Below are positions 2,721 to 36,960 of a stretch of 40,753 nt of DNA, one piece after another. A program made the translations under genes and the position numbers. The DNA comes from Enterococcus viikkiensis (GTDB lineage Bacteria > Bacillota > Bacilli > Lactobacillales > Enterococcaceae), in NCBI RefSeq assembly GCF_005405345.1, contig NZ_BJDW01000022.1, forward strand, positions 1 through 40,753, given 5' to 3'. Every line of letters starts with the position of its first letter. The first letter of the stretch is position 1. The notes below the pieces were generated by a model. That model ran no database searches, was not told the DNA's origin, and saw only the letters and a program-made list of their open reading frames with translations.

Positions 2721-2743
2721 AACTTATGTCGAAAGGATGTGAG

Positions 2744-3099: not shown

Positions 3100-3125
3100 T
3101 AAATAACAAAAGAAAGGGTTGCATC

Positions 3126-4925: not shown

Positions 4926-5018
4926 GAGAGTAATCAGCAAAACTATTTTATCATACCATGCAAGATTTTTAAAACATTAGACGAAATTAATCCCAAGACA
5001 GCATAGGAGGTGAGATGA

Positions 5019-5294: not shown

Positions 5295-5303
5295 AATTTT
5301 CAC

Positions 5304-5321
5304 CTCACTTTATATAGTGAG
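5304..5321. promoter_or_regulatory. Perfect 18-bp palindromic site
   Basis: CTCACT-TTATAT-AGTGAG is a perfect 6-6-6 inverted repeat between the diverging 5097-5294 gene and the rightward gene at 5348. It overlaps the ribosome-site side of the minus gene. It is a candidate operator for one or both directions. Confidence 0.45.
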
Positions 5322-5347
5322 TATACCAAATGATAGGAGGATAAATA

Positions 5348-5593: not shown

Positions 5594-5606
5594 AGGAGGC
5601 AACAGC

Positions 5607-5798
5607 ATGAAAAAAATCTATTGGCTAAGACGAACAGGCGCGATGCTATTTATGTTTGGAATTGGTGCGACACTAACAGGAAATGTACCTGACTGGTTAA
5701 AAATAGCGTACGTTACATCTATTTTTGGATTGGTACTGATCTACGATATTGCGGAGTATGAACAAAAAAAGCCAACCGAGGGGGCTGACTATGAATAG
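5607..5798 (+). CDS. Small membrane protein
   Basis: This 63-aa protein begins MKKIYWLRRTG and has two hydrophobic segments (about residues 11-27 and 32-48), then an acidic C-terminus. The ribosome site GAGGAGG lies 7 bases upstream of ATG 5607. Two-helix proteins of this kind are common in Enterococcus phage early regions and have no assigned function. Confidence 0.65.
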   Translation: MKKIYWLRRTGAMLFMFGIGATLTGNVPDWLKIAYVTSIFGLVLIYDIAEYEQKKPTEGADYE

Positions 5799-5953
5799 AG
5801 TAGAAGCTCTAAAAATAGGAAAGATAATAGCTGATCGTTGGTGGGTTCGTAATCAATCAACAATTCGAGCAAAGCAAAATATCGGCGGAGCTTGTGAGAT
5901 ATAAAAACGGTAAGGACTTCAAAAAAGAAATGGAGGAATTATACAGTGAATGA
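5791..5953 (+). pseudogene. Small early gene, apparently frameshifted
   Basis: A frame starts at ATG 5791 (GAGGGGG six bases upstream, overlapping the previous stop) and encodes MNRVEALKIGKIIADRWWVR before ending at TAA 5902-5904. The +1 frame over 5882-5953 then reads ISAELVRYKNGKDFKKEMEE and stops at TGA 5951-5953, just inside the start of the next gene. That is the spacing expected of an intact operon gene, so I read this as one ~53-aa gene broken by a small indel near the AAGCAAAAT stretch (about 5870-5880). A sequencing error or a genuine 37-aa product are alternatives. Confidence 0.4.
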
Positions 5954-6608
5954 AGAAAAAGAGATGTCGCTTGACGAAAAGCTTTTGAGTTTGATTGCGG
6001 AATTAAAAGCTCCGGAGGGTCAACGAAATAATTTCGGCAAGTACAACTATAGAAGTGCAGAAGATATTTTAGAAGCCGTGAAGCCGCTGGCACTCAAATA
6101 CGGGTTGCTACCACGCCTATCGGATGAGCCAATTGCGATAGGTGACTGGCACTATATACAAGCTACTGCTTCCATTATAGATGTAAAAACAGGGGAAGAA
6201 CGTTCGGCGACAGGCAACGCGAGAGAACCCGAATCTAAAAAGGGTATGGATGAATCGCAAATAACAGGAACAGCTTCATCCTACGCTCGAAAATATGCTA
6301 TGAACGGCTTGTATCAAATAGATGATACTAAGGACGCGGATACAGACGAATATAAGCAACAAGTAGATAGCGGAAAACCAAAGACAATCGATTCTAACAA
6401 ATCAAAAGTACTTAAAGCAAAGGTCAAGGAGTTAGCAATTCTAGCCAGTTTAAAAACAGGTACAGATATTACGCCCGATGCAATGTATAAAAAACTATCA
6501 GATACTAAGTTTTTGACCATAATCCCTATTGAGAAATTAGATACAGAACAGTTTCTTACCATTGACCGCTATATTAAAGAGTTAGAAAAAGCCTATTCGA
6601 AGAAGTGA
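5946..6608 (+). CDS. erf: ERF-family single-strand annealing protein
   Basis: This 220-aa recombinase carries the ERF signature: NNFGKYNYRSAEDILEAVKP, then a beta region, then QITGTASSYARKYAMNGLYQ followed by the acidic DDTKDAD (about residues 105-135). ERF proteins promote annealing of complementary single strands and circularise or recombine phage DNA, usually with an SSB and a nuclease. All of these are encoded nearby (SSB at 10895, nucleases at 6614 and 10559). The start is GTG 5946, nine bases after GGAGG. The C-terminal third is less conserved, as usual. Confidence 0.9.
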   Translation: MNEEKEMSLDEKLLSLIAELKAPEGQRNNFGKYNYRSAEDILEAVKPLALKYGLLPRLSDEPIAIGDWHYIQATASIIDVKTGEERSATGNAREPESKKGMDESQITGTASSYARKYAMNGLYQIDDTKDADTDEYKQQVDSGKPKTIDSNKSKVLKAKVKELAILASLKTGTDITPDAMYKKLSDTKFLTIIPIEKLDTEQFLTIDRYIKELEKAYSKK

Positions 6609-6613
6609 TCAGC

Positions 6614-7291
6614 ATGAACAACCTTTCTTATCTTGCAAAAATAACAAATATTTCTGGAAGAAAAATTATTTTAGAACTCAAAGAAGAACTGAATATCGAA
6701 AGATTGAAGACGATTTTCAACGGATTTGATGGCGAGAGACAAGCGGAGCTTTTCATCAAAGATCCACGTGGCTTTACACCGCAACAGAGACGCTTTGTGT
6801 TCGCTTTAATGCAGGACATATACATTTATACTGGAGAACCGTTAGAAAGCCTTAAAGACGTGTTTTATTGGCAATTTAGGTACTTCACAGGTAAAGACAT
6901 TAGTTTATCGAATGAATCAGAGAATACAGTAGATGAAGTATCTACGTTGTCTGAATTGATACTAGATTTTATCTTCGAAAATGACATTCCATTTCGTGAA
7001 GGCTATGAGATTCCACCACAAAACACACAATACTATTTTTATAAATGTGTAACGACAAGAACCTGTTGTATTTGCGGTAAAAAGAATGCTGATATTGACC
7101 ATTTTGATAAAGCTTTAGGAAGAAGAAAGCGAAGTGAGGTAGACCACACAGAATTTAATTTTGCAGCACTCTGTAGAACCCACCATCAAAGAAAGCATCA
7201 AATGGGGATTACGGAATTTAAGAATAAGTATCACGTTATTGGTATCAAACTGAATCAAGACGAGATTAAAAAGTTGAGGATCGGAGGTTAA
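6614..7291 (+). CDS. Putative HNHc nuclease (phage replication/recombination)
   Basis: This 225-aa protein has a unique N-terminal ~130 residues (FNGFDGERQAELFIKDPRGF, TPQQRRFVFAL) and a C-terminal HNH-like module: paired cysteines in TCCICGKKN, a DIDHFDK histidine, and EVDHTEF...ALCRTHHQRKHQ as the metal and catalytic histidines. This is the architecture of phage 'putative HNHc nuclease' proteins found next to ERF or RecT genes. I prefer ATG 6614, with GAAGAAG upstream, over the in-frame GTG 6605 that overlaps the ERF stop. It most likely processes recombination intermediates with ERF. Confidence 0.85.
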   Translation: MNNLSYLAKITNISGRKIILELKEELNIERLKTIFNGFDGERQAELFIKDPRGFTPQQRRFVFALMQDIYIYTGEPLESLKDVFYWQFRYFTGKDISLSNESENTVDEVSTLSELILDFIFENDIPFREGYEIPPQNTQYYFYKCVTTRTCCICGKKNADIDHFDKALGRRKRSEVDHTEFNFAALCRTHHQRKHQMGITEFKNKYHVIGIKLNQDEIKKLRIGG

Positions 7292-7295
7292 GAAC

Positions 7296-8099
7296 TTGGC
7301 TGAAATAAGTTGGATAAAGCTCAAGACGACAATGTTCGACGATGAAAAAATAAGGTTAATACAAGCTGTTCCTGAAGCAGATGCAATCTTAGTTATTTGG
7401 ATAAGGCTTTTAGTGTTGGCAGGGAAGACTAACGACGATGGTTTGATTTATATACAAAGAAATATGCCTTACTCAGAAGAAATGCTAGCAACTCTTTTTG
7501 GGAAAAACGTCAATACAGTCCGACTAGCACTGACAACGCTAGCTAATTTCAACATGATTGACATCAGCAACGATGGAGTAATTTCTATTAGCAACTGGGA
7601 AAAACACCAGAATATTGAAGGAATGGAACAAGTTAGGCTTAAAAATGCTGAAAGAAATCGAAAATATCGTGAACGTAAAAAACAAGAATTGCTCGAGTCT
7701 AAGAGTGACGTTAGCGTGACGTCACGTGACGCAACAGATATAGATAAAGAATTAGATAAAGAAAGAGATATAGATAAAGAGAAAATACCATATAGCGAGA
7801 TCATCAAATACTTGAACAACAAAACAAGCAAATCATTTAAAGTTACTCAAAAATGGAAAGACCTGATCAAAGCAAGATGGAATGAAGGTCAAAGGCTTGA
7901 TGATTTTAAAAAAGTGATTGATGTAAAAACAGGTCAGTGGATAAACAATCAAGAGATGAACAAATACCTAAGACCAGTAACGCTCTTTGGGAACAAGTTT
8001 GATGATTACTTGAATGAATACAGACCACAAATTAGTTCTTCAATATCTGATGAAATAGCAGAATCACAAAGGAAGATAGCTGAAGCATATGAACAATGA
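7296..8099 (+). CDS. Phage replisome organizer (replication initiator)
   Basis: This 267-aa protein has the N-terminal phage replisome-organizer domain (MAEISWIKLKTTMFDDEKIR, LVIWIRLLVLAGKTNDDG, a winged-helix-like fold to about residue 110). A charged linker (KNAERNRKYRERKKQ, then Asp/Lys repeats) follows, then the conserved phage C-terminal region (IIKYLNNKTSKSFKVT, YLRPVTLFGNKFDDYL). These proteins bind the phage origin and load the helicase, and the next gene is the helicase. The start is TTG 7296, eight bases after CGGAGG. The linker-coding DNA contains iterons and palindromes (7705-7780), consistent with an origin inside the gene as in several lactococcal phages. Confidence 0.9.
   Translation: MAEISWIKLKTTMFDDEKIRLIQAVPEADAILVIWIRLLVLAGKTNDDGLIYIQRNMPYSEEMLATLFGKNVNTVRLALTTLANFNMIDISNDGVISISNWEKHQNIEGMEQVRLKNAERNRKYRERKKQELLESKSDVSVTSRDATDIDKELDKERDIDKEKIPYSEIIKYLNNKTSKSFKVTQKWKDLIKARWNEGQRLDDFKKVIDVKTGQWINNQEMNKYLRPVTLFGNKFDDYLNEYRPQISSSISDEIAESQRKIAEAYEQ
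7705..7780. other. Candidate replication origin (iterons inside initiator gene)
   Basis: GTGACG occurs three times at 7705, 7716 and 7726, spaced 11 and 10 bp (one helical turn). It includes the perfect palindrome GTGACGTCAC (7716-7725). Directly after come two exact 15-bp repeats AGATATAGATAAAGA (7736-7750 and 7766-7780) with a third core GATAAAGA at 7755-7762. The stretch encodes the low-constraint linker of the replisome organizer. Phage initiators commonly bind repeats in their own gene. Confidence 0.55.
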
Positions 8100-10374
8100 A
8101 CTTAGTCTAGTTGCAGAAATGCTAAACAACCCATCGATCATTACGAGCATTGATATTGATTCTGAATGGTTTGAGAGTCCTCAACAAAAGATGATTGTAG
8201 AAGCATTAACTCGGCTTAGGGGCGTGAACTACACAACAGAACAAGTCTATCGAGAAATGAGAAGCATTGACTTGTTTAGCGCTGGCACAGTTGATGATCT
8301 CGAAACGTTAAAAGGATTAGCACCTCAGTTAGGAATCGAAAGAGAATTAGCGAGACAGATACACAATGCCTACTTAGACCGCAAGTTGCATACAGCGTCC
8401 ACAAATTACGCTCAGACCCTTTCTAAAACAGATGGGGACAAGTTACAGCGACTGCTAGAAGAAAAGCGTGAGATCAATCATATCAAGTCTGATGGCAGAT
8501 TAGACGTAGCGTTCGCTGAATTTTGCGATAGCTTGGATAGACCCAGCAATGCAATGACAACTAATAAACCACTAGATGACTTTTTAGGTGGCGGAATAAC
8601 AGGAGGTAAGTTGATCGTTTTGGCAGGAAGGCCTGCTACTGGGAAAGGGCATCCGAATTGGTTAGAAATACCAACACCAAAAGGAAAAGTAAGATTTGGT
8701 GATTTAAAACCAAATGACTATGTTTTTGATCAACACGGAAAACCAACTAAGGTAGTTGGCGTATATCCGAGAGGTACTTTGAAAACTTTTGAAGTCACTT
8801 TAAAAGATGGAAGAAAGACAATTGTTGATGAAGATCACATCTGGAGTGTTTATACATCAAAGGGAAATTTAAAGGAAATAACAACAAAAGAAATTTTTGA
8901 AACTGGAACGCACAGAGTAGATGTGAACGGGAAAAAACATGCTAGATACTCAATACCTTTAAACGGTCCAGTTGAATACAATCCTCAAAACGAGTCGGCT
9001 ATTGACCCTTATTTGATTGGTGTGTATTTGGGAGATGGCTGCTCATCAGAAAGACCTTTAACTATCAGTGGATGTGACGAGTTTGTGTTTATAAAAATAG
9101 CCGAAATAACAAATACAAAGCCCAAAAAATTAAGTTCAAAAAATTATAGTTGGGTTTTCGAGTTGAAAGAACACAAAAAGAATAAAAAGTATTTACAAAC
9201 AAAAGATGTTTTTTCTAATATTCCAGAAATTGTCAGATATTCTCATTTGAAAGAGATACCTGAATATTTAATGACATCAAGTATAAGCGAAAGGCTTGAG
9301 CTATTAAGAGGATTGTTTGATACAGATGGATCAGCGTATATAAGCAAGAATAGTCCTTATGTAAAATATAGCACCACTTCCAGAAAAATGGCTTATCAAG
9401 TAAGAGAACTGCTATTTAGTATTGGGTATGAAAATAAGATTAGAAAAGATGAAAGAGGTAAAAATATCTGTTATGAGATATCCGTCTTGGCAGAAGTTAG
9501 TAAATTGTCCGAATTATTCAAAACGCCAACTAAAAAAAATGTTCTTTTAGAATGTGACCATAAATTTAGAAAGAAATTTAATAGATCGATAATTTCTGAA
9601 ATTAGAGAAGTTGGGTATGAAGAAGTAACTTGTATCTCAGTTGAAAACAAAGATCAGTTGTATCTTTGCAACGATTTTATAGTTACTCATAATACGGCTT
9701 TCGCTTTAAACATCATGTATGAGCTGTTTACTAAAAATAATGATGTAGCTTGCGACTTCTTTACTTTTGAGATGGGTCAAAACGAACTGATGACACGTTT
9801 AGTTTCCAAAGTGACTAATATCAATTCACTATTGTTCGTAGGTAAAGACAAACTAAGTCCTGATAACAAAGTAAAAGCAAGAGAAGCTTATGAAGCTATG
9901 AAGAGATCATTCGATATGCGAGTGTTCACTTCTGAATATTCAAATTTGAATGACATTAAATATGCAATCAAAAAACGTATTGGTGACAAGCGCTATGTTG
10001 CTTTCGTAGATTACGCAGGACTGATAACAGTGAATGACGCTCGTAAAAATGAACGTCAAGTAATGAACGAAGTAACCAGAGAATTAAAAAAACTCACGAC
10101 TGATTATGGTATTACGATTATTTTATTGGCTCAGTTAAGTCGTGCGGTTGAACAACGACAGGATAAGCGACCAATGCTTAGCGATTTGAAAGAGTCAGGA
10201 TCACTAGAACAAGATGCAAACGTAACCTTGCTACTATCTGCCGACGAAAAAGACAGCCGAAAAATACGTTGCGATGTTGCTAAAAATAGAGAAGGCATGA
10301 CAGGTATAGCACCTTTCATTTTTGACAAAAAGCACATGGATTTCAGCATCGATTTTGATGAATGGAGAGGCTGA
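8089..10374 (+). CDS. DnaB-type replicative helicase precursor containing an intein
   Basis: This is a 761-aa precursor. The exteins are residues 1-186 and 536-761 and give a 412-aa DnaB-like helicase after splicing. The N-domain runs from 1 to ~125. Walker A is GRPATGK(180-186) plus T536, interrupted by the intein. The conserved FFTFEM motif follows. Walker B is FVDYAG with Asp641. The downstream ILLAQLSRAVEQR and DLKESGSLEQDAN motifs are typical of DnaB. The gene overlaps the replisome organizer by 11 bp, the classic initiator-helicase pair. The common second intein site (SG/SIEQD) is empty here (SGSLEQD). Helicase activity should require splicing, because Lys186 and Thr536 of the P-loop are brought together only by it. 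Confidence 0.93.
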   Translation: MNNELSLVAEMLNNPSIITSIDIDSEWFESPQQKMIVEALTRLRGVNYTTEQVYREMRSIDLFSAGTVDDLETLKGLAPQLGIERELARQIHNAYLDRKLHTASTNYAQTLSKTDGDKLQRLLEEKREINHIKSDGRLDVAFAEFCDSLDRPSNAMTTNKPLDDFLGGGITGGKLIVLAGRPATGKGHPNWLEIPTPKGKVRFGDLKPNDYVFDQHGKPTKVVGVYPRGTLKTFEVTLKDGRKTIVDEDHIWSVYTSKGNLKEITTKEIFETGTHRVDVNGKKHARYSIPLNGPVEYNPQNESAIDPYLIGVYLGDGCSSERPLTISGCDEFVFIKIAEITNTKPKKLSSKNYSWVFELKEHKKNKKYLQTKDVFSNIPEIVRYSHLKEIPEYLMTSSISERLELLRGLFDTDGSAYISKNSPYVKYSTTSRKMAYQVRELLFSIGYENKIRKDERGKNICYEISVLAEVSKLSELFKTPTKKNVLLECDHKFRKKFNRSIISEIREVGYEEVTCISVENKDQLYLCNDFIVTHNTAFALNIMYELFTKNNDVACDFFTFEMGQNELMTRLVSKVTNINSLLFVGKDKLSPDNKVKAREAYEAMKRSFDMRVFTSEYSNLNDIKYAIKKRIGDKRYVAFVDYAGLITVNDARKNERQVMNEVTRELKKLTTDYGITIILLAQLSRAVEQRQDKRPMLSDLKESGSLEQDANVTLLLSADEKDSRKIRCDVAKNREGMTGIAPFIFDKKHMDFSIDFDEWRG
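8647..9693 (+). mobile_element. Class 3 (WCT) intein with LAGLIDADG homing endonuclease
   Basis: The intein covers precursor residues 187-535 (349 aa). It starts with Gly-His-Pro rather than Cys/Ser/Ala and ends VTHN before Thr. The class 3 triplet is complete: Trp252 in block B (DEDHIW, with His250), Cys515 in block F (VTCISV) and Thr533 next to the terminal His534-Asn535. In class 3 inteins the block F Cys replaces the N-terminal nucleophile, as shown for the mycobacteriophage Bethlehem DnaB intein. Two LAGLIDADG helices, LIGVYLGDG (309-317) and LLRGLFDTDG (405-414), show an endonuclease domain with both acidic residues. Boundaries follow from restoring the P-loop GRPATGK-T. The exact N-terminal residue is inferred from this. 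Confidence 0.9.
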
Positions 10375-10562
10375 TGGACGGGGAAACTTACTTAGCAATT
10401 CTAAAAGAAAACGAATTAAAGAGAAGCAAGCTAGTGAAGTTGCTAGAAAAGCAAGTTGCGATTCTATATGAGAACAATCTAATCGATATGGCAGAAGAAA
10501 CGAAATGGCTTGCGATAGATATAGCTGAATTTGAGAAGAAAAATGGAGTGATAGACATTTGA
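10374..10562 (+). CDS. Small hypothetical replication-region protein
   Basis: This 62-aa helical, charged protein (begins MDGETYLAILKEN) starts at ATG 10374, sharing a base with the helicase TGA stop. GGAG lies six bases upstream. An in-frame ATG at 10362 has no ribosome site. It sits between the helicase and the VRR nuclease and overlaps the latter by 4 bp, so it belongs to the replication operon. Family not recognised. Confidence 0.65.
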   Translation: MDGETYLAILKENELKRSKLVKLLEKQVAILYENNLIDMAEETKWLAIDIAEFEKKNGVIDI

Positions 10563-10894
10563 ACGAATTAGAACTTCAAAAGCAGATTAAACAGGAGTTG
10601 CGGCGTTTAGGGCATAAGTGCTGGCAAGTAGATTCGGGTAAGAAATTAACTCATAAAACGAGAGGTCAAGGATTAGAAAAAGGGTTTCCAGATTTATTCG
10701 GAGCACGAAGTACGGATGGCAAGCTGTTCTTTGTAGAAGTAAAAATTGGCAAAGGTAAGCCTTCTGGTGATCAGATTAAATTTTTGAAAGTTGCACAAGA
10801 AAATAAGATTCTGAACGGCGTTGCTTGGAACTTAGAACAAGCGATTGAGATAGTGAACGGCGAGAGATCAATAAAGAATTTGGAGGAAAATTAG
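10559..10894 (+). CDS. VRR-NUC domain nuclease
   Basis: This 111-aa stand-alone VRR-NUC protein shows the PD-(D/E)XK-like core in order: CWQVDSG, an HKTRGQGLEKGFPDLFG loop with the catalytic Asp, FFVEVKIGKGKP with Glu-X-Lys, and SGDQIKFL (the Q of the motif). VRR-NUC proteins in phages act as structure-specific nucleases, similar to Holliday-junction resolvases, in recombination and replication. The start is TTG 10559 with GGAGTG upstream. Adjacent genes are SSB and helicase; ERF is in the same operon. Confidence 0.88.
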   Translation: MNELELQKQIKQELRRLGHKCWQVDSGKKLTHKTRGQGLEKGFPDLFGARSTDGKLFFVEVKIGKGKPSGDQIKFLKVAQENKILNGVAWNLEQAIEIVNGERSIKNLEEN

Positions 10895-11338
10895 ATGATT
10901 AATAATGTGGTTTTACAAGGGAAATTAGGCAAAGATATCGATTTAAAATATACACAGTCAGGGAAAGCAGTTGGTTCTGTAAGCATTGCATCTACGAGAG
11001 ACTTTAAAGATGCTAACGGAAATAGAGATACCGATTGGATCAATCTTGTGTTTTGGGGTAAGACAGCTGAAACAGTTGATAATTACTTTAAAAAAGGCGA
11101 CGAGATTTTAGTAATTGGAAGAATTCAAGTGAGAAATTATGAAGATCAACAAGGAAATAAAAAGTATATTACCGAAATCGTAGTGAGTAACTTTAGTTTC
11201 CCTGGAGGAAAGAGCAAAGAAAGCCCACAAAGCAATTCTTCAGGCAATTCATATAGCAATAACCGTAATAGTAAACCGAATGCTGATCCATTTAGTGGAT
11301 CGTCAATAGACATCGGCGACGACGATCTGCCGTTCTAG
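10895..11338 (+). CDS. ssb: Single-stranded DNA-binding protein
   Basis: This 147-aa SSB has an OB-fold at residues 1-~105 (MINNVVLQGKLGKDIDLKYT, INLVFWGKTAETVDNYFKKG, GRIQVRNYEDQQG). A Ser/Asn/Gly-rich disordered linker follows, then the acidic tip GDDDLPF that recruits replication and repair partners. Ribosome site GGAGG precedes the ATG. It protects single strands at the phage fork and presumably cooperates with ERF. Confidence 0.95.
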   Translation: MINNVVLQGKLGKDIDLKYTQSGKAVGSVSIASTRDFKDANGNRDTDWINLVFWGKTAETVDNYFKKGDEILVIGRIQVRNYEDQQGNKKYITEIVVSNFSFPGGKSKESPQSNSSGNSYSNNRNSKPNADPFSGSSIDIGDDDLPF

Positions 11339-11349
11339 GAGGTGTTCAT

Positions 11350-11706
11350 ATGAGAAGCCGGAAAACACCAGCGCAGCAACAGGCATGGAACGAATTATTA
11401 CTGCTCATCAATGATCCAGAGTGGTATTTAGACAGTTCAAAATGCGAGAAACATAAAAAAATAATGGAAATTCTTGAGAAAAACGAAGTAATTTTACCGC
11501 AAAACAGAATAGATATTAAACACCAAAGATATCTTGATGCACGTTCGGGACTGGAAAAAGAAATTATTTATCAAATAAAAAAAGGAAGGACTATGCAACA
11601 GTTGAGGGAAATATTCAGGATAGACCCCAAAATATTTTCTTATGTCAGGAGGAAGCATGGATTATCCAAAAATAACAAGCTAAAAAAAGGTAAAGAGGGA
11701 ATTTAG
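11350..11706 (+). CDS. Hypothetical phage protein, possible HTH
   Basis: This 118-aa, very basic protein has a strong ribosome site (AGGAGGTG). Residues ~80-108 (IKKGRTMQQLREIFRIDPKI, FSYVRRKHGLS) read like a helix-turn-helix, so it may bind DNA. It is contiguous with SSB upstream and with the 80-aa gene downstream. I do not recognise the family. Confidence 0.6.
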   Translation: MRSRKTPAQQQAWNELLLLINDPEWYLDSSKCEKHKKIMEILEKNEVILPQNRIDIKHQRYLDARSGLEKEIIYQIKKGRTMQQLREIFRIDPKIFSYVRRKHGLSKNNKLKKGKEGI

Positions 11707-11949
11707 ATGAAAACAATTAATATTTTCGGCGAATACATCGAAGGAGAAGAAATCGAGTATTTAGATCAACCGTTAAAAAATGTACTCATCGTTGAGGACC
11801 AAAACGGCGTTAGACACGTCGTGCATAAAGAGACGGTTAATCCAAAGCACAAGCGAACGCCTAGCCGTGCAGGCGTAAGATTTGATTTACTTGCTTGTCA
11901 AGCGAATGGCAGAAAAGGACCACTGAGAAGGTGGAGGAAGATTGGGTAA
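11707..11949 (+). CDS. Hypothetical phage protein
   Basis: This 80-aa protein starts directly after the preceding stop, with GAGGGA six bases upstream. The N-terminal half is acidic (FGEYIEGEEIEYLDQ) and the C-terminal half strongly basic (KHKRTPSRAG, GPLRRWRKIG). No known domain is recognised. Confidence 0.6.
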   Translation: MKTINIFGEYIEGEEIEYLDQPLKNVLIVEDQNGVRHVVHKETVNPKHKRTPSRAGVRFDLLACQANGRKGPLRRWRKIG

Positions 11950-11962
11950 AAGTTCCGCTAAC
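11950..11962 (+). repeat. 13-bp direct repeat upstream of methyltransferase gene
   Basis: AAGTTCCGCTAAC here recurs at 12550-12562, exactly 600 bp downstream. In the downstream copy it encodes the last codons of the methyltransferase (K-F-R-stop). Each copy is followed by A-rich sequence with AAGTAG. The pair brackets the 12001-12561 gene. Confidence 0.7.
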
Positions 11963-12000
11963 TGGCGCTATCAAGTAGTTTTTTTGAAAGGAAAATATTT

Positions 12001-21834: not shown

Positions 21835-22950
21835 ATGACTATGAAACTATCAAACGAATTCAAAACAATTCGTGACAACTTCTTAGCTGCTGTTAATAAT
21901 AACGAGCCAGCTGAAAAACAAAATGAACTATACGGTGCAATGCTCGATGAATTGCTGAACGAAGCAAAAAAACAAGCGCGTGCTGAGGCAGAAGGATTAA
22001 TTGCTGAAAATCCGGCAGATGCGAAATTATCTGCTCGTGAGCGTAAATTTTTTAATGCTATCAGCACGGACGTCGGTTATAAAGAAGAAAAATTGTTGCC
22101 GCAAGAAACCATTGATCGAATCTTTGAGAACTTAACTACTGCCCATCCACTATTAGCTGAAATCGGTTTAGTAAACGCAGGGCTACGATTGAAATTCTTG
22201 AAATCTGAAACAAGTGGTGTTGCTGTATGGGGAAAAATCTTCGGCGAGATTAAAGGTCAGTTAGATGCAGCGTTCAGCGAAGAAGAAGCAATTCAAAGCA
22301 AATTGACGGCGTTTGTAGTTGTTCCTAAGGATTTGAAAGACTTCGGACCAGCTTGGATTGAATCATTTGTGGCCACTCAAATTGATGAAGCTTTTGCAGT
22401 GGCTTTAGAGGCTGCTTTTTTATCAGGAGATGGAAATGACAAGCCGATTGGTTTAAATCGTCAAGTTCAAGAAGGTGTAGCCATTACTGGTGGTGTTTAT
22501 CCAGAAAAAACTTCAATGGGCGATTTAACATTTGCTGATTCAGCAACGACTGTTAAAGAACTAACGAATGTTTACAAACATCATTCAACTGACGAAAAAG
22601 GTCACGCAGTTGCTGTAGATGGAAAAGTTGTCATGGTAGTTAATCCTAGTGATGCTTGGGATGTCAAACGTCAATATACTTCATTAAATGCGCAAGGAGT
22701 ATATGTAACTGCGTTACCTTACAATTTGAAAATTGTTGAATCATTAGCGCAAGCAACTGAAAAAGTTTTAACGTTCGTAAACGGCCGATACGATGCATAT
22801 ATTGGTGGGGGCATTACTTTACGTAAATACGATCAAACATTAGCGATTGAAGACATGGATTTATACACTGCTAAACAGTTTGCTTATGGGAAAGCTAAAG
22901 ATGATAAGGCTGCTGCAGTTTGGGAATTAAAAGTATCCGAGGGAAAATAG
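21835..22950 (+). CDS. Major capsid protein (HK97 fold)
   Basis: This 371-aa capsid protein has an N-terminal helical delta domain (about 1-75; KKQARAEAEGLIAENPADAK), removed by the adjacent protease, and an HK97-fold shell domain (LLPQETIDRIFENLTTAHPL, VWGKIFGEIKGQLDAAFSEE, SFVATQIDEAFAVALEAAFL, GDGNDKPIGL, GGGITLRKYDQ). AAGGAGG lies nine bases before ATG 21835. The stop codon is preceded by G GGA AAA, a canonical -1 slippery heptamer, and the -1 frame stays open for 21 more codons, so a minor extended form (to 23012) is probable. Confidence 0.96.
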   Translation: MTMKLSNEFKTIRDNFLAAVNNNEPAEKQNELYGAMLDELLNEAKKQARAEAEGLIAENPADAKLSARERKFFNAISTDVGYKEEKLLPQETIDRIFENLTTAHPLLAEIGLVNAGLRLKFLKSETSGVAVWGKIFGEIKGQLDAAFSEEEAIQSKLTAFVVVPKDLKDFGPAWIESFVATQIDEAFAVALEAAFLSGDGNDKPIGLNRQVQEGVAITGGVYPEKTSMGDLTFADSATTVKELTNVYKHHSTDEKGHAVAVDGKVVMVVNPSDAWDVKRQYTSLNAQGVYVTALPYNLKIVESLAQATEKVLTFVNGRYDAYIGGGITLRKYDQTLAIEDMDLYTAKQFAYGKAKDDKAAAVWELKVSEGK

Positions 22951-23012
22951 AGTCCCCCGCAGTTATTAATGTTGAACCGACAAGTGACGGAGCAACAATT
23001 GCACTGCGATAG
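22941..23012 (+). other. Programmed -1 frameshift site and extension of the capsid gene
   Basis: Slippery site GGGAAAA (22941-22947) is in the correct phase (G GGA AAA) just before TAG 22948-22950. After slipping, the product continues K-I-E then SPAVINVEPTSDGATIAL-R and stops at TAG 23010-23012. The extension matches the one after the tail tube gene (25128-25190) at 12 of 20 aligned residues, so it is real coding sequence. The next gene's ribosome site starts right after this second stop. Confidence 0.8.
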
Positions 23013-23027
23013 AAAGGGGCGTTTCTA

Positions 23028-23330
23028 TTGGATGAGAAATTGCTAAAAGATTTCAAATCGCGGATGAGAATCTTTCATACTGCTGACGATGACAACTTAG
23101 AAAATATTTTGGAAAGTTCAAAAGTAGCTGTTAAGCGATGGTGTGGGACTGACAATGTTTCAAATCCTGAAATTCGCGAACTCGTGATTGAACGCAGCCG
23201 ATATGTCTACAATGATTCGTTAGAATTTTTCAATGATAACTTTCAATCGGAATTAATGGCTGTCTCTTTAGCAAATTATGAAGAGGGAGCTGATGGCGAA
23301 GATGAAGTACCAGAAACCCAAAGTCAATAA
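23028..23330 (+). CDS. Head-tail connector (gp6-like adaptor)
   Basis: This 100-aa helical protein (begins MDEKLLKDFKSRMRIFHTAD) has the gp6-like pattern: short helices, KVAVKRWCG, then IRELVIERSRYVYNDSLEFF. It forms the ring under the portal. The start is TTG 23028, nine bases after GAAAGGGG. It overlaps the next gene. Confidence 0.85.
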   Translation: MDEKLLKDFKSRMRIFHTADDDNLENILESSKVAVKRWCGTDNVSNPEIRELVIERSRYVYNDSLEFFNDNFQSELMAVSLANYEEGADGEDEVPETQSQ

Positions 23331-23667
23331 CGGCGCTATGAGAACACCTGTTGAATTTTTTCAATATCGACCTCATAAAGGCCCTGAGCCAGGCGAGCAA
23401 GAGAAGCAGACCATTTTTAATTGTTTCGCTGAGATTTATAACCCCTCAATGAAAGACTTGGAAATTTTGAACTCAAAGACGACTAAACAAGCAGTAACTC
23501 TCACGATTAGAGATCCGCAAACTGACTACATTGTTTCAAACAAGCATTATGTAGAGGTTATGGATAGGAGATATTCAGGTATTCGTTGGAACATCGTTGA
23601 CGTTCGAAATGATTTCACTGACAACCGATTTATCACGATTTTATTAGCGGTGTATAGCGATGAATAA
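23293..23667 (+). CDS. Head-tail adaptor / head-closure protein
   Basis: This 124-aa beta-rich protein (RTPVEFFQYRPHKGPEPGEQ, CFAEIYNPSMKDLEIL, VTLTIRDPQ, MDRRYSGIRWNIVDVRND) has the sequence pattern of phage head-tail adaptor/stopper proteins. I choose ATG 23293, with GAGG six bases upstream; an upstream in-frame ATG at 23278 lacks a ribosome site. It closes the connector after DNA packaging. Confidence 0.85.
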   Translation: MAKMKYQKPKVNNGAMRTPVEFFQYRPHKGPEPGEQEKQTIFNCFAEIYNPSMKDLEILNSKTTKQAVTLTIRDPQTDYIVSNKHYVEVMDRRYSGIRWNIVDVRNDFTDNRFITILLAVYSDE

Positions 23668-24064
23668 TGGTGATTTTAAAGGCGTCAATGAGACCTTACG
23701 AGCGATGGAAAATCGTCTTGGTGATAAGAAAGTCAGGTCAATAGCTCGAAAAGCTATCAATTCCGGTGCAGAAATAGTTGAGAAGAAACTTCAAACAGAC
23801 ATGCTAGTCTTTAAAGATAAAGGTTACACGATTGACGAAGTTGTCCGTAAAAACGCAACGTACAAAAACTACAAAGCCGAGGCTGAAATAGGATGGAATG
23901 GGCCTCATCAGCGTTACAGGCTTATTCATTTGAACGAATGGGGTTATACGAGAAATGGACGTCAAATAAAACCGCGCGGATTTGGCGTTATTACAAAATC
24001 GTTAAAGAATTCTGAACCCTTGTACTTCGAGACAGTGGCATCGGAGGTAAAGAGAAACCTATGA
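23660..24064 (+). CDS. HK97 gp10-like tail-completion protein
   Basis: This 134-aa protein with VRSIARKAINSGAEIVEKKL, then a beta core and HLNEWGYTRNGRQIKPRGFG, is typical of the HK97 gp10 family that joins tail to head. It overlaps the preceding gene by 8 bp and the following by 4 bp. Confidence 0.88.
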   Translation: MNNGDFKGVNETLRAMENRLGDKKVRSIARKAINSGAEIVEKKLQTDMLVFKDKGYTIDEVVRKNATYKNYKAEAEIGWNGPHQRYRLIHLNEWGYTRNGRQIKPRGFGVITKSLKNSEPLYFETVASEVKRNL

Positions 24065-24471
24065 AAGATATGCTTGGTAATATCTATGAATTGCTGTGTA
24101 ACAATGAATACATCAAAAACATGACGTTCAATGACGAAACAGAAGAATATCGCATCAAGTATTACGAACAACCAGAAACGGCGGATAAAACTGGACCGTT
24201 CATTACAATTAGACCTGTGGACGTCCCAAACGAAGCCTATCACGGAAGCGATAAAGAACTTTCTATTGAACATGTAATACAAATTGATGTTGAGTCTAAA
24301 TACAGAGCAACATGCAAACAAATGCAATATGAAATTAAAAAAGAGATGAAGAAGATTGGTTTTGGGCAAGTAAATGGTCAAGGTTTAGACGAATATTTCT
24401 CGGAGACTAGACGTTATGTAGACGCTCGACGATATGACGGGAATACACGAATTTACGATACACAATATTAA
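24061..24471 (+). CDS. Tail terminator-like protein (DUF806)
   Basis: This 136-aa protein of the DUF806/gp11-like type (FITIRPVDVPNEAYHGSDKE, HVIQIDVESKY, GFGQVNGQGLDEYFSETRRY) occupies the standard place for the tail-terminator that stops tube growth and joins the connector. It is the last head-connector gene before an intrinsic terminator and the tail tube gene. Confidence 0.82.
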   Translation: MKDMLGNIYELLCNNEYIKNMTFNDETEEYRIKYYEQPETADKTGPFITIRPVDVPNEAYHGSDKELSIEHVIQIDVESKYRATCKQMQYEIKKEMKKIGFGQVNGQGLDEYFSETRRYVDARRYDGNTRIYDTQY

Positions 24472-24490
24472 AACAGAATAACAGGAATTA

Positions 24491-24517
24491 AGACACGAAA
24501 ACTCGTGTCTTTTTTTG
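24491..24517 (+). terminator. Intrinsic terminator between connector and tail tube genes
   Basis: AGACACGA (24491-24498) and TCGTGTCT (24503-24510) form a perfect 8-bp stem followed by seven T. Located inside the late operon, it must be leaky or bypassed, or the tail tube gene has its own input. Confidence 0.88.
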
Positions 24518-24543
24518 TTGTCAAAATTAGGAGGAAATAAATT

Positions 24544-25128
24544 ATGACTTTAGTCGGATTTAAAAAAATGACAATCGGAATTTTTGATAAGGACGGTAAA
24601 ATTCCAACAGCTAATCAATTTGTTATTGAAGGTAAACAAGATAAAGGGGCCACTGTATCCGCTGAAATTAGCGGCCTATCAAAAGAAGCTACAAAGGTAT
24701 ATGGCTCAAATATTGCTTACTATATCTCGCAAAAAGGAACAGGAGACATTTCTGCTACGTTTGGATTGTTAGATTTACCAGAAGATTTAAATGACAAGAT
24801 TCTTGGTTACAAAACTGATGCAAACAAGATCAGCTTTCTTGGCGAAGACACGGAGCCGCCATATTGCGCATTGCTTATGGAGTCAGAAGATCTCGGTGGG
24901 GATACAGCTATGTTGACAATCTTTAAAGGTAAGTTTAGTCGTGAAGCTATCAATTTGAATACTACAACAAATGAAGCCTTTGAACCTGAAGCAGAGGAGT
25001 ATGTATTTTCTGCAATTGCCAATGATGCTGATGGCGAAGCAAAGGGGCAATCGGTTGCTAAATATGTTGGAGATGAAGAGGCGTCAATTACAGCAATGCG
25101 CACAATGGCTTTTCCAGCGGGGGAGTAA
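24544..25128 (+). CDS. Major tail tube protein (phi13 family)
   Basis: This 194-aa tube protein belongs to the phi13-type major tail family: VGFKKMTIGIFDKDGKI, GATVSAEISGLSKEATKVYG, YISQKGTGDISATFGLLDLP, YCALLMESEDL, FKGKFSREAINLNT, and MRTMAFPAGE at the end. GGAGGAAATAAATT precedes the ATG. The end reads GCG GGG GAG TAA, and the -1 frame is open for 20 further codons to TAG 25188-25190. A fraction of subunits is therefore probably extended with a surface-exposed tail, as for the capsid. It is flanked by intrinsic terminators at 24491 and 25549. Confidence 0.95.
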   Translation: MTLVGFKKMTIGIFDKDGKIPTANQFVIEGKQDKGATVSAEISGLSKEATKVYGSNIAYYISQKGTGDISATFGLLDLPEDLNDKILGYKTDANKISFLGEDTEPPYCALLMESEDLGGDTAMLTIFKGKFSREAINLNTTTNEAFEPEAEEYVFSAIANDADGEAKGQSVAKYVGDEEASITAMRTMAFPAGE

Positions 25129-25190
25129 CAAGCCCAGTCGTTGGGACAGTTACCCCGACGACAACAGGGGCAACAATCGCATTAAGTTAG
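25119..25190 (+). other. Probable -1 frameshift site and extension of the tail tube gene
   Basis: A run of five G (25119-25123) lets the tRNA on GGG slip back by one just before GAG TAA. The -1 frame then reads G-V-T-SPVVGTVTPTTTGATIAL-S and ends at TAG 25188-25190. The site is less canonical than in the capsid gene (A-site re-pairing is poor), but the peptide is clearly related to the capsid extension, which argues that it is translated. Confidence 0.7.
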
Positions 25191-25200
25191 GAGAATGAGT

Positions 25201-25542
25201 GTGGTAGATACATTTAGAATTTATAAAAAAGATGGAACAAAAGTAGTGGAGGGCACAAGCCCTCTTTCTATCACTGGTATTGCAGCAAATACACAAGTAG
25301 CAAAGGGAGACTATCAAGCAACTCGGTTGGTTAATGATGTTGAATCAATGAAAGTTGATATCCCAGCATTTAAGACATTGGCTGAGCAAGAACCGGAAAC
25401 ATCCGGATTTGATCCTGAAGGAGATGTAAAGCCAACAAATGCGAATACCGTTGAAGAAATAAAAGCATGGTTGACAGCGCACGAAATTGATTACACAGGA
25501 AAGACGCTTAAATCAGATTTGCTTGCATTAGTACCAGCATAG
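25201..25542 (+). CDS. Small tail-region protein with C-terminal HeH/LEM-like domain
   Basis: This 113-aa protein has an N-terminal beta part (TFRIYKKDGTKVVEGTSPLS, then ANTQVAKGDYQATRL), resembling small Ig-like additions, and a C-terminal helix-extended-loop-helix domain (TVEEIKAWLTAHEIDYTGKT, LKSDLLALV). GTG 25201 is chosen because it lies seven bases after AGGAG. The ATG at 25195 is only one base away from it. It follows the frameshift-extended tube gene and ends just before a terminator. Possibly a tail-decorating or nucleic-acid-binding protein; role unknown. Confidence 0.75.
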   Translation: MVDTFRIYKKDGTKVVEGTSPLSITGIAANTQVAKGDYQATRLVNDVESMKVDIPAFKTLAEQEPETSGFDPEGDVKPTNANTVEEIKAWLTAHEIDYTGKTLKSDLLALVPA

Positions 25543-25602: not shown

Positions 25603-25914
25603 ATGGCACAAGTTCGAATTGAATTAAAAAATAAAAAAGGCAAAAAAGAAGTCTTTGAGAAATTAGAAACAACCGGGAAAGACTATCGTTTAGCCTTGCA
25701 AACAATTAAAAAATTAAATGCAGAAAAAGTCATGGTGTGGGATCAATTAGATATTTATTTAGCTTTTGCAGTGGAAATTTTCAAAGCAGACAAATTGACT
25801 TCTGATCAAATTTTAGATGGATTAGCTTCTGAAAAAACTCGGGAAACTTTGGATGATTTATTAGGGCAAGTAATGGGAATTGAAGATAATCCTGATCCAG
25901 ATGCAAAAAAGTAA
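25603..25914 (+). CDS. Tail assembly chaperone gpG-like
   Basis: This 103-aa protein (begins MAQVRIELKNKKGKKEVFEK) is the short form of the tail chaperone that coats the tape measure during tail assembly. The end GCA AAA AAG TAA contains the slippery heptamer A AAA AAG (25905-25911) directly before the stop. AGGAGG precedes the ATG. It lies immediately upstream of the tape measure, as in all lambda-type tails. Confidence 0.9.
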   Translation: MAQVRIELKNKKGKKEVFEKLETTGKDYRLALQTIKKLNAEKVMVWDQLDIYLAFAVEIFKADKLTSDQILDGLASEKTRETLDDLLGQVMGIEDNPDPDAKK

Positions 25915-26093
25915 CTCCGGAAGAAGCTGAAGAAATGTATCTGGAATTGTGCCGAGAATTAACTAAACAAGGTTGGTCTCTTTCGGATATCGAGAACAAT
26001 TCTTTTGACACTTTGATCGAAATAGCCTGTGTAAGTCCGAAAAAAGAAAAACAAAAAGAAGTCGACCTAAAAGACTTCGTCAAATCTATTTAG
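25603..26093 (+). CDS. Tail assembly chaperone gpGT-like (-1 frameshift product)
   Basis: Slipping by -1 at A AAA AAG (25905-25911) fuses gpG to a 60-residue T domain (VTPEEAEEMYLELCRELTKQ, GWSLSDIENNSFDTLIEIAC, then a Lys-rich end and VDLKDFVKSI), stopping at TAG 26091-26093, 15 bp before the tape measure ATG. gpG and gpGT in a fixed ratio recruit tube subunits to the tape measure. The expected arrangement and perfect slippery sequence make this a firm call. Confidence 0.9.
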
Positions 26094-33352: not shown

Positions 33353-34399
33353 GTGACTGATTTAATTATTCGAAATTATGAACAAACCAAAGAAGAAATC
33401 CTTGTCGGTTATGACAAGGGTTCTTTTTATGAAAACTGGCAACAAAATGAAACGTGGGAGATTGGCTTTACCGTTACCAGCAATTCGTTGAATCAAGAAG
33501 TATTTGATTTAGTTGAATACGAGTCTTCTGTTTTCTACAACGGACAGGAATTTGTGATCAAAGAAATGACTCGCAAAGCACTTGGACAGTTGTTGACGAA
33601 ACAAGTAGTTGCGACACATATCTATTACACCGTTCAAGATGGTTATCAGTACGATGCAGTAACTGGTGCGAGATCTATTAGCCAGTTACTCACACATGTA
33701 TTTAGTGCAGGGAGTCGCGGCTTTACATGGGAAGTCATTGATCCAAACAAGAAATTCCTTACAGTCGAACAAGAAAACTTCGGTAATGCGAATTATTTGA
33801 AGCTGATCAATGAGATTCTGACTGACTATAATGCAGTCGTGATTCCGAATAATAAACATCTAACTTTCTATCCCGCCAGTGAGTACGGCCAGCAGACGGA
33901 AGAACAGATTCGCTATAAATACAATACAGATGAAGTGTCATTCGATATTGATACGTACAGTCTAAAAACACAAATCAAAGGCTATGGAAAATTGAAGGAT
34001 GGCGCAAATACTGAGAATCCTAAAGATAGTGACTATAGATTTACTCCTATCACTTACACAAGTCCTGAATCACAGAAGTGGGGAATCAGGATACAAGATC
34101 CTGTTAAAGACGAACGGTATACCGTTTCAGGGAACATGCTCGAGCGGTTAAAGACAGACTTGCAAGACTATCCAAGTATTTCGGGATCCGTAACCTTGAA
34201 ATGGAAAATCAGTCCCAACAAAGGTGATCACGTTCCATTCATTTATGAGCCTTTGAAAATCAATACGTACATTCAAGTAGTCGGTATTAAGACCTATCCA
34301 GCATTACCTAACAAACCGCCGGAAATAACACTAAGTAACACAAAGAAAACAATGACATCTATATTAGCCGGATTAGCTAAGAAAGGAGTGATGCGCTAG
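33353..34399 (+). CDS. Tail-associated protein (Tal, N-terminal hub domain)
   Basis: This 348-aa protein corresponds to the N-terminal domain of the prophage tail endopeptidase family (Tal/gp44-like): FYENWQQNETWEIGFTVTS, VFYNGQEFVIKEM, THIYYTVQDGYQ, ISQLLTHVF, VEQENFGNANYLKLINEIL, RYKYNTDEVSFDIDTYSLKT. There is no C-terminal peptidase or lysozyme domain, so this short form only closes the tail tip. Hydrolase activity is instead in the tape measure. Starts at GTG 33353 with AGGTGA upstream. Confidence 0.88.
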   Translation: MTDLIIRNYEQTKEEILVGYDKGSFYENWQQNETWEIGFTVTSNSLNQEVFDLVEYESSVFYNGQEFVIKEMTRKALGQLLTKQVVATHIYYTVQDGYQYDAVTGARSISQLLTHVFSAGSRGFTWEVIDPNKKFLTVEQENFGNANYLKLINEILTDYNAVVIPNNKHLTFYPASEYGQQTEEQIRYKYNTDEVSFDIDTYSLKTQIKGYGKLKDGANTENPKDSDYRFTPITYTSPESQKWGIRIQDPVKDERYTVSGNMLERLKTDLQDYPSISGSVTLKWKISPNKGDHVPFIYEPLKINTYIQVVGIKTYPALPNKPPEITLSNTKKTMTSILAGLAKKGVMR

Positions 34400-35790
34400 T
34401 GGATTTAGAACTATTAGAGAAAAATAATATTTCGACTGAGTGGAAAAAAACTTTCAACGATAACGTCAAAGTGTTGTTGGGATGGAACCAACGAAATGTT
34501 ATGACGGTTGAAACGATTAACTCGCGAATCGACAATCTCGTCTTACATTCAGGGGGAGATTCGCCTAACGAAGTTGTGGATGCGCGGGTGAATGTTAAAG
34601 GAACAACGTATCCGACGTTATATTCAAGATTACTTGCATTGGATAACCTAGTGGATTCTAATTATACTGAATTGAAAACTCGTCAGGATACACAGCAAGG
34701 GCAACTCGATCAATTAAATGACTCAATTGGAACATTGATGGGTGCTTATGGAGAAACGTTGAGTCTGTATGTATCTAAAAATGGAAATAACCAGACTGGA
34801 GATGGATCAGAATCAAAACCATTTCTAACGATCCAAGCAGCAGTCAATCGAATTCCTTTACTGACCAGCTCACGAGTAACAATTTGGATATCCGATGGAG
34901 CATATCTCGAAGATGTGGTAGTAAGAAATCTTAAAGCTGTCAGCATAACGATACGAAATCTACAAAATGTAACAGATACAAGCTCAGAACTGGGTGTAAA
35001 AGTCCGTTCAATTGCTTTCATTAGTTCGCTGGGTTATCAGCAAATCAACGGCCTTCAATTTGTCGATCAGGCAAATATTTCCAGTGCAGCATATATTTCT
35101 GGGGATTTAAAATGTGCAATCTATTCTGAACAATCAAGTTACTTGGGAGTTTGGAATTGTCGTTTCGCTGAAAATACTTTTGGAAAAGGAAATAGATGTC
35201 TTTTCGCAATAGGTGCTTCAAAAATTGGTACAAGTAATAATTTCTATCAAAATCAGAACTGTATTGCTGAAGCGCGTAATTTAGCTGATATTGTCATCAG
35301 CTCAAAAGATAAAGGTACAGGAAACGACTATGGTCTGATAGCTGATAATGGAGCAGGTAGAGTGAACGTCGCGGATTCTAAAGTACGAGCAAATCGCATT
35401 GCAGAAGTACGCAATCAAGGAAATATCGAGACTGGTCCGATCATAAGACAGATAACGAAAGACGACATTAGCGATAGAGAAAATGTCACAGATGTAAATG
35501 GAACAATTAAGCGTGATGGAAACGTGGTAACTGTATCAATCATGTTTGAATGTAATAACTTTCCTTCTGATGTTTCTAACACTCGAAACATTATTTTAGT
35601 GCCTGCCGGATTCAAGCGTGACCAGAATTATCCGGCCTATCATGCATTAGCGTTATATCGGAATGAATCACAGCCAGCTGGCGCCCGAGCCGGAATGACT
35701 GAAGCAAGCCGTATCGTCGCGTATTCAGGAAATGGGAGATCCTATATTTCTGGAAGTTGGGTAACGAACGATGCAATACCAATCGTCTAG
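34399..35790 (+). CDS. Baseplate/tail protein with beta-helix and receptor-binding-like C-terminus
   Basis: This 463-aa protein has an N-terminal anchor that includes the widespread SPNEVVDARVNVKGTTYPTL segment (55-74), a short coiled coil (QDTQQGQLDQLNDSIGTLM), a right-handed beta-helix resembling pectate-lyase folds (about 120-350: SLYVSKNGNNQTGDGSESKP, TIQAAVNRI, VTIWISDGAY), and a C-terminal ~105-residue domain (DVNGTIKRDGNVVTV... AGFKRDQNYPAY... SYISGSWVTND). The last domain is paralogous to that of the next protein. It probably binds or degrades surface glycans. Starts at GTG 34399, sharing a base with the Tal stop. Confidence 0.85.
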   Translation: MDLELLEKNNISTEWKKTFNDNVKVLLGWNQRNVMTVETINSRIDNLVLHSGGDSPNEVVDARVNVKGTTYPTLYSRLLALDNLVDSNYTELKTRQDTQQGQLDQLNDSIGTLMGAYGETLSLYVSKNGNNQTGDGSESKPFLTIQAAVNRIPLLTSSRVTIWISDGAYLEDVVVRNLKAVSITIRNLQNVTDTSSELGVKVRSIAFISSLGYQQINGLQFVDQANISSAAYISGDLKCAIYSEQSSYLGVWNCRFAENTFGKGNRCLFAIGASKIGTSNNFYQNQNCIAEARNLADIVISSKDKGTGNDYGLIADNGAGRVNVADSKVRANRIAEVRNQGNIETGPIIRQITKDDISDRENVTDVNGTIKRDGNVVTVSIMFECNNFPSDVSNTRNIILVPAGFKRDQNYPAYHALALYRNESQPAGARAGMTEASRIVAYSGNGRSYISGSWVTNDAIPIV

Positions 35791-35802: not shown

Positions 35803-36960
35803 ATGTATAAAACAAATGAAGAAATCATCGTCATTCAAGCAAAAGCAATCACCCCTATCCCAACTGGAGTGGTTTTCTGGTCGCATGACAAAGGTACCGC
35901 TAAAATGCTTTTTCAACTGCAAAAGGATTATGTTAATCAAACGTTGTCCGAAGGAACAATTGTTCCAATTTGCTTAGATTTTGTTGGCGGCCGCCACATT
36001 TATCATGCGATAATCGAAGATGCGATAAACGGAATTGTGTCTATCGTGTTAGAAGATAATATTTTAGGTTATGTCGGGCGTGTAGAGGGGTCAATTTATA
36101 TTGAGTTACCTGATTCGCGATCGTTAGACACTGCTGGACGTTTTACCTTTGACATCAAGCGAAGCCCGATTGATTTAAATACGCCTGAATTAGATGACTA
36201 CTACTGGCAAGGTTTCAATCAGATTATGGATCAATATCACGAGACGTCTAATAAATTATTTGATGATTTAAACAACACGCAAGTTAAATTGAATGAAATT
36301 TTTAACGCAATTGAAGAAAATAAGGTTCTTTTAAAAAGCGAGGCAGATATCTTTTTTGCCAAAAAAACAGATTTAACTAAAGAAAATATCGGTTTAGGAA
36401 ACGTTGATAACTTTACCACGGCCACGCAGGCTGAAGCTGAAGCGGGAACAGCTACTAATAAGTTCATGACACCTGCTTTAGTATTTAAAGCAATCGCAAA
36501 ATGGGTACAAGGCAAGTTTGTTTCTGCGACTGGTAACGAAACTATTTTAGGAACAAAGAATTTTCAAGACGGGCTTCAAACTGGCGGATTAGGTGTCCAG
36601 GCGGGAATGATTGAGCGAGCTATTACAGATGCAGACCGTAGTGATACAACCAATGTGAAAGAGGTTAATGGGAAATTTTTCAGAATAGGAAATATCGTGA
36701 TTCTGACAATGGGTTACAATTGTGACAATTACCCGAGTGCGGCAACCGAAACACGTTGGATTGTTAAAGTTCCGGATGGTTTCAAAAGGGATCAAGAATA
36801 CCCAGCTCAGACGTCCTTATCAATCACTAGAAATGCTTCGCAACCGTCAGATGCTCGTGCGTATTTAAGCCAAGCTTCTATGATTTGCGCTCGTTCTGGT
36901 AATGGAAACTCTTATATATCAGGTGTGTGGGCAACTAAAGATCCATGGCCATCTAACTAA
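35803..36960 (+). CDS. BppU-type baseplate upper protein with receptor-binding-like C-terminus
   Basis: This 385-aa protein has an N-terminal BppU domain (AITPIPTGVVFWSHDKGTAK, MLFQLQKDYVNQTLSEGTIV, GYVGRVEGSIYIELPD, FTFDIKRSPIDL), a helical stalk (about 135-185), a short LTKENIGLGNVDN phage-tail segment, and a C-terminal ~105-residue domain closely related to that of the upstream protein (GFKRDQEYPAQ, NASQPSDARAYLSQAS, GNGNSYISGVWATKD). It is likely the docking platform and adhesin. GGAGGGGG precedes the ATG. Confidence 0.88.
   Translation: MYKTNEEIIVIQAKAITPIPTGVVFWSHDKGTAKMLFQLQKDYVNQTLSEGTIVPICLDFVGGRHIYHAIIEDAINGIVSIVLEDNILGYVGRVEGSIYIELPDSRSLDTAGRFTFDIKRSPIDLNTPELDDYYWQGFNQIMDQYHETSNKLFDDLNNTQVKLNEIFNAIEENKVLLKSEADIFFAKKTDLTKENIGLGNVDNFTTATQAEAEAGTATNKFMTPALVFKAIAKWVQGKFVSATGNETILGTKNFQDGLQTGGLGVQAGMIERAITDADRSDTTNVKEVNGKFFRIGNIVILTMGYNCDNYPSAATETRWIVKVPDGFKRDQEYPAQTSLSITRNASQPSDARAYLSQASMICARSGNGNSYISGVWATKDPWPSN

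Follow-up and report, generated by a model that had tools for sequence, protein, structure and literature searches.

Matching frameshift-encoded tags on a capsid and a tail-tube gene of Enterococcus viikkiensis: a candidate split FN3 domain

Why should two unrelated phage structural genes, coding for a major capsid protein and a tail tube protein, both be followed, out of frame, by much the same short peptide? The question is raised by contig NZ_BJDW01000022.1 of Enterococcus viikkiensis (assembly GCF_005405345.1), of which positions 1 to 40,753 were analyzed; this whole stretch of 40,753 nucleotides (nt) is called the window, and all features described below lie on its + strand. The answer that we consider very probable is that the peptides are the plugs, and the product of a neighbouring gene the socket, of a split fibronectin type III (FN3) domain, by which one cargo protein would be docked on both head and tail, in a dose set by frameshifting.

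The 0-frame product of the capsid gene (21835..22950) is a major capsid protein of HK97 type, recognized by Pfam Phage_capsid (E 1.1e-12) and phrog_10, major head protein (E 3.1e-60); that of the tail-tube gene (24544..25128) is recognized by Pfam Phage_TTP_1 (E 1.1e-17) and phrog_88. The capsid open reading frame (ORF) ends with GAG GGA AAA TAG, where a -1 slip heptamer, G_GGA_AAA (22941..22947), abuts the TAG at 22948-22950; the identical site is found in close relatives. The tube ORF ends with GCG GGG GAG TAA, and here the -1 slip site G_GGG_GAG (25119..25125) abuts the TAA at 25126-25128. The latter context, GCG_GGG_GAG plus stop, precedes tags in many relatives and directly fused HeH or Big2 domains in others. 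Read in the -1 frame, the capsid gene continues as ..IE-SPAVINVEPTSDGATIALR up to a stop at 23010-23012, and the tube gene as ..VT-SPVVGTVTPTTTGATIALS up to a stop at 25188-25190, so that the two tags, stops included, occupy 22953..23012 and 25131..25190. Each consists of 19 codons and starts 5 nt past the first base of the main-frame stop. The stretch 25117-25190, at the end of the tube gene, finds a 79.7% match in the Enterococcus phage EFC-1, where it lies at the capsid-gene 3' end.

The two tags are identical at 12 of 19 residues, with a BLOSUM62 score of 52. The background was built from pairs of 19-residue peptides ending at a stop in the six frames of the window: among 724,205 other pairs only one scores as high (55), and it is itself formed by the related C-termini of two neighbouring genes. 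Across the compared loci, 84 distinct tag DNAs scoring at least 20 were collected, coding for 74 distinct peptides; 64 are in the -1 frame, 18 in the +1 frame and 2 in frame. The peptides are short, which is what could be said in favour of a chance similarity; with the pair scores of the window and the recurrence of the tag in relatives, this explanation is refuted, and its probability is practically nil. Clearly related C-termini, ..SGNGRSYISGSWVTNDAIPIV and ..SGNGNSYISGVWATKDPWPSN, are also carried by the adjacent ORFs 34399-35790 and 35803-36960, apparently following a local duplication.

The tag frame is constrained at the amino-acid level. In 173 pairs of tag DNAs from relatives, 2-14 nt apart and not independent of each other, differences at codon positions 1, 2 and 3 number 359, 293 and 758, respectively, and the ratio of non-synonymous to synonymous change (pN/pS) is 0.40. 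The original prediction, made from the letters of the window, that capsid and tube carry homologous tags on unrelated genes is thus borne out: neither a unique coincidence nor a lack of amino-acid constraint, the two outcomes by which it proposed to be judged wrong, was found. Because the slip sites abut the 0-frame stops and the extensions are under amino-acid constraint, both tags are assigned, on sequence grounds, to the putative frameshift-encoded C-terminal extensions of phage structural proteins. With a putative frameshift, the sub-stoichiometric display that had also been predicted is plausible; in phages phiEf11 and phiSP44-1 no shift of frame separates the tube from its tag. The RNA of the tags is more stable than codon-resampled versions, with a mean z of -1.56 for 59 -1 tags and of -1.74 for 13 +1 tags. 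A role as specific stimulator of -1 slipping is weakened, because the +1 tags share the excess stability.

The second component is coded by a partner gene (25195..25542), which matches phrog_341 (E 5.8e-18, residues 7-67 of the stop-to-stop ORF). Its likelier start, judged by eye, is the GTG at 25201, the coordinate given by the original prediction, located 7 nt after an AGGAG ribosome-binding motif (25189..25193, also found by eye) that overlaps the stop codon of the tube tag. Proteins of this kind begin with TFRIYKKDG..SPLSITGI..GDYQATRL..ES..VDIPAF. In the window this region (25201..25380) ends with VDIPAFKTL and, according to the alignment, holds FN3 strands C-G only; the protein would therefore start in the middle of the domain, strands A-B being apparently lacking. 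The second part of the protein is a HeH domain in the window, a Big2 domain in others, or little more. The window HeH/LEM domain (25447..25533), the candidate cargo, scores below the Pfam HeH cut-off (E 0.0014) and resembles the HeH domains fused to the tube or capsid of relatives. A half-FN3 protein of this kind, gp11 of phage vB_EfaS-271 (7.0 kDa, named major tail protein), is listed among the proteins that mass spectrometry detected in a purified lysate, where 5 peptides gave a coverage of 93.94% (PMC7503890); its gene comes after that of the capsid, and this phage has both +1 tags.

The ability of tag and half-domain to form one fold was evaluated on a natural stretch, spanning both across one stop codon. 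The model reaches a predicted local distance difference test score (pLDDT) of 94 and can be aligned end to end with solved FN3 domains, as a beta sandwich of FN3 type, in which the tag forms strands A-B and the half-domain the rest; strands A-B are predicted for both window tags from the model of a relative's tag. In a divergent pair, of the type found at locus L197, the match of the half alone to Pfam fn3 starts no earlier than profile position 42, with 18.2 bits, whereas tag plus half, the last tag residue being typed from sister loci, match from position 19, with 21.3 bits. The window tag ORFs alone have no Pfam match. According to the model, the tag extension is not a whole frameshift-encoded Ig or FN3 domain, because its 19 residues would make two strands and the remainder lies in another gene. 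When a joined query was used in tblastn, no single-chain fusion covering the tag was found among the 60 of 605 matches listed, and 3 of the 605 with at least 80% coverage fall outside those. When the joined alignment was searched against PDB sequences, a single, weak match (E 1.2) was obtained, to gp30, 'tail wing base' (9d93, chain Sa), where the match to the half-domain begins at chain residue 8, as if this protein too started mid-domain.

In tagged phages the gene immediately following that of the tube, or that of the capsid, is of the partner type. The association was counted over loci that include many near-copies and are not independent. Among 33 loci with relatives of the window tube, 32 could be scored: 25 have tag and half gene, 7 have neither (one of these, L036, on a short contig). 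For 80 loci with window-type capsids, tag and gene are both found in 12, a tag in 2 on contigs too short for the comparison, a gene without a scored tag in 14, and neither in 47, while 5 are short. Twelve of the 14 fall into 7 site groups; one representative of each was read, and all of these have divergent +1 tags at CCC_TAR. The other 2, L192 and L218, are without a capsid tag. Of the 47 loci with neither, L197 and L200 carry a divergent tag; their tubes, both read, are tagged too, and a divergent half gene was read in L197. In L195, L196, L197 and L200 the end of the tag and the start of the next gene overlap at TAATG. The 80 loci with EFC-1-type capsids are divided into 16 with both elements, 52 with neither and 12 short. 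Half genes were detected in 17 of 105 members of the family and 22 of 395 of the order, two overlapping sets that both include the genome of the window.

Starting from the half gene, a scored tag lies no more than about 220 nt upstream in 21 of 32 loci, compared with 0 of 1,749 reverse-strand peptides. From this set the window's own locus and L363, a run of ordinary FN3 repeats, were left out; extra divergent seeds were added to its scoring matrix, some of its tags are identical to earlier ones, and some (e.g. L373, L375 and L379) lie in the frame of a long ORF. The tags were also compared within 30 non-redundant phages (of 165 loci) in which capsid and tube are both tagged and a half gene is present. 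The mean score of capsid against tube tag of the same phage is 58.1, versus 34.3 (standard deviation 2.8) after shuffling, and none of 20,000 shuffles is as high. The similarity of the tags tracks that of the half-domains, with Mantel r of 0.72 and 0.66. The two tags of one phage are far more alike than tags of different phages; shared descent contributes to this, although the tags sit on unrelated genes.

The proposed mechanism is as follows. Near the end of the capsid and tube genes, on their last codons, some ribosomes would slip by -1, as suggested by the sites, the geometry and the frame-specific conservation, and add the 19-residue tag, predicted to form the FN3 strands A and B. The neighbouring gene would supply strands C-G plus a cargo domain, HeH in the window and Big2 in many relatives, and tag and half-domain would complete one FN3 sandwich; the joined stand-in is predicted with high confidence, and two separate chains may assemble likewise. 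Any tag exposed on head or tube would then be a docking place for the cargo protein, its dose would depend on how efficiently ribosomes shift frame, and the cargo may do an outward job, perhaps contact with the cell surface or with glycans, by analogy with phage Ig-like domains.

Several observations weigh against this mechanism. The frameshift product and the complex of tag and half are here predictions, made from sequence and model. The model is a single chain, in which a glycine replaces the stop codon, so that assembly in cis is favoured; its alignment was put together from tags and half-domains, a single-sequence model of a longer stretch is poor (pLDDT 50.6) and unusable, and Foldseek found no PDB match of the model at E 0.001 or better. 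In the L197-type pair, the score of tag plus half stays below the Pfam fn3 cut-off of 25 bits and the tag contributes only 3.1 bits; the window's own tag plus half have no Pfam match, so that the evidence for FN3 comes from the model and from relatives. The association is also imperfect: L192 and L218 have the partner gene and a tube tag, without a capsid tag, L360 has a half gene without adjacent tag, and 11 of the 32 loci have no scored tag beside the half gene, although among these L364 and L377 end in FN3-like stretches, judged by eye, and L370 and L378 picked the same gene. Many loci are redundant, shared ancestry explains part of the correlation between tags and halves, and the scoring matrices were seeded from phages with the partner gene, so very divergent tags elsewhere may be missed.

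Other readings were considered. The tag itself might be a surface-binding motif for glycan or cell wall, exposed on head and tail, with the neighbouring gene unrelated to it; the frameshifted FN3 domain of the SPP1 tail tube is indeed described as proposed to contact cell-wall carbohydrate (PMC8718954). As the tag amounts to only two FN3 strands, is tied to a half-FN3 gene and completes its fold in the model, this is improbable. The original prediction had left the choice between such a role and the docking of a neighbouring partner: docking gains support from a neighbour apparently devoid of the very strands that the tag would supply, and from the tie of tagged genes to such a gene, while a glycan-binding role of the tag itself finds none, surface binding being more likely the job of the partner's second domain.

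Somewhat less probable still, and to the same degree, are two further explanations. The tags could be relics of full FN3 extensions, or a coupling device steering slipped ribosomes to the next start, the peptide having no role; the overlap of the tube tag's stop with the partner's ribosome-binding motif and the over-stable tag RNA would fit, whereas the low pN/pS, the 2.2 kb between the window capsid tag and the partner gene, and the similar peptides of constant length, obtained from differing frames and shift sites, do not. Alternatively, tag and half-domain could be homologous to FN3 and never meet, the tag packing against the capsid or tube protein that bears it, the half dimerizing or borrowing strands elsewhere. 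That the structure was modelled as one chain rather than two leaves space for this; co-occurrence, the matched similarity of the two tags and the correlation of tag with half all speak against it.

Docking through a split domain would also be in keeping with relatives that have no tag/half pair, some of which carry the cargo, Big2 or HeH, fused straight onto capsid or tube; the pair would therefore do in two pieces what these do in one. In EFC-1-type capsids such as that of L309, the same GCG_GGG_GAG_TAA site adds a Big2 domain 67% identical, over 89 residues, to that of the EFC-1 half-FN3 protein. In tube relatives (L034, L040 and L041) the slip context of the window adds HeH directly, with 56-60% identity to the window HeH over 35-45 residues; HeH is added by frameshift to capsid relatives L220 and L214 (50% and 41% identity, respectively), and a weaker HeH to the L229 capsid (38%, E 0.017).

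Tag pairs on unrelated capsids and tubes are present in phages of Enterococcus, Brochothrix, Lactobacillus and Staphylococcus, reached by a -1 or a +1 shift or without any. Searched with a motif, the compared loci, many of which are copies of each other, gave 76 matches, all of 19 residues, in the -1 frame and at constant distance from the main stop. In EFC-1 both capsid and tube are tagged, and Brochothrix phage BtpYZU02 has two -1 tags; the efquatroviruses heks, SANTOR1, EFAP-1 and VEsP-2 have +1 tags on both genes, with CCC_TAG in three of the four. In phiEf11 the capsid tag is -1 and the tube tag in frame, while Staphylococcus phage phiSP44-1 and Lactobacillus phage iLp84 carry divergent versions. 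No tag was seen at the gene ends read in Listeria phages PSA and A118 and in B025, and neither tag nor half-FN3 gene in PSA 1-10000 and A118 1-12000. A widespread mobile system, in which strand-donor tags in varied frames and on varied genes equip head and tail alike with one exchangeable cargo, is a reasonably likely generalization; it may extend to protein chains in a large Staphylococcus phage and metagenomic relatives, because the half-FN3 protein there ends in a tag itself.

If the mechanism is correct, it would be nature's equivalent of the split-domain tag/catcher pairs made by engineering, and it would account for the use of frameshifting in order to add a seemingly meaningless short tail. 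Genes annotated as 'major tail protein' or 'hypothetical' would become partners with a definite job, and a ready-made, genetically encoded attachment of one protein to phage head and tail would be at hand. With just a peptide and one small protein, the old question of the purpose of frameshifted structural extensions becomes open to direct test.

In chaperone-usher pili, a peptide strand of one chain completes the Ig-like fold of another (donor-strand complementation). Here too, a peptide from the product of a separate gene would complete an Ig-like fold, presumably in trans; unlike in pili, there is neither chaperone nor usher, and two strands would be given, by the C-terminus of a capsid or tube protein extended through frameshifting. 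Programmed frameshifting is described for cps and tsh of the Listeria phages PSA, A118 and A500, +1 in both genes of PSA, -1 and +1 in A118 and A500 (Zimmer 2003 and Dorscht 2009, as cited in PMC5009743). As in that account, capsid and tail genes of one phage would both be extended at the C-terminus by a frameshift at the 3' end; unlike what is described there, the window has a -1 site in either gene, and its two extensions are homologues. Gain of FN3 material by frameshifting, proposed here for the window tube, is described for the tail tube protein of SPP1, gp17.1*, with short and long forms reported at 3:1 (PMC8718954); the SPP1 tube carries a whole FN3 domain, whereas the window tube would carry strands A-B only, the rest coming from another gene, which can also act for the capsid. 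Frameshift-encoded Ig-like domains of phages T3 and A2 (Fraser 2006, as cited in PMC5009743) are likewise C-terminal modules on differing structural proteins, in varying frames; the window module differs from those described in being split between a peptide on the structural protein and a remainder in another gene. T4 Hoc is reported as an accessory capsid decoration protein of Ig type, displayed on virions (PMC7602432). A similar accessory protein is proposed here, relying on a portable tag common to head and tail instead of a capsid-specific site. In the titles and abstracts listed from the literature searched, which included few subscription papers, no split FN3 or shared head/tail tag was found, and an earlier description is possible.

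Some arrangements were noted besides. In Staphylococcus phage vB_SauM_JDF86 (L345, 4800-6228) three consecutive genes appear chain-like by eye: gene 1 has a tag-like end, gene 2 a half-FN3, a Big2-like domain and a tag-like end, and gene 3 a half-FN3 alone. Phage contigs L063 and L065 (4013-4261 in both) code for half-FN3 proteins with their own terminal tag, and the preceding tube has an in-frame tag. Two half-FN3 genes stand in tandem in L370 / L378 (genome G398). In iLp84 (L346, 4477-5736) a half-FN3 protein with a long threonine-rich tail is followed by a glycosyltransferase-like ORF, recognized by eye, hinting that the protein may be a glycosylated decoration. Finally, a third possible frameshift of the region concerns the tail assembly chaperone gene of the window (Pfam Phage_TAC_19; 25603-25914), whose layout suits a -1 shift at A_AAA_AAG, ahead of TAA, into another open frame (25896-26093).

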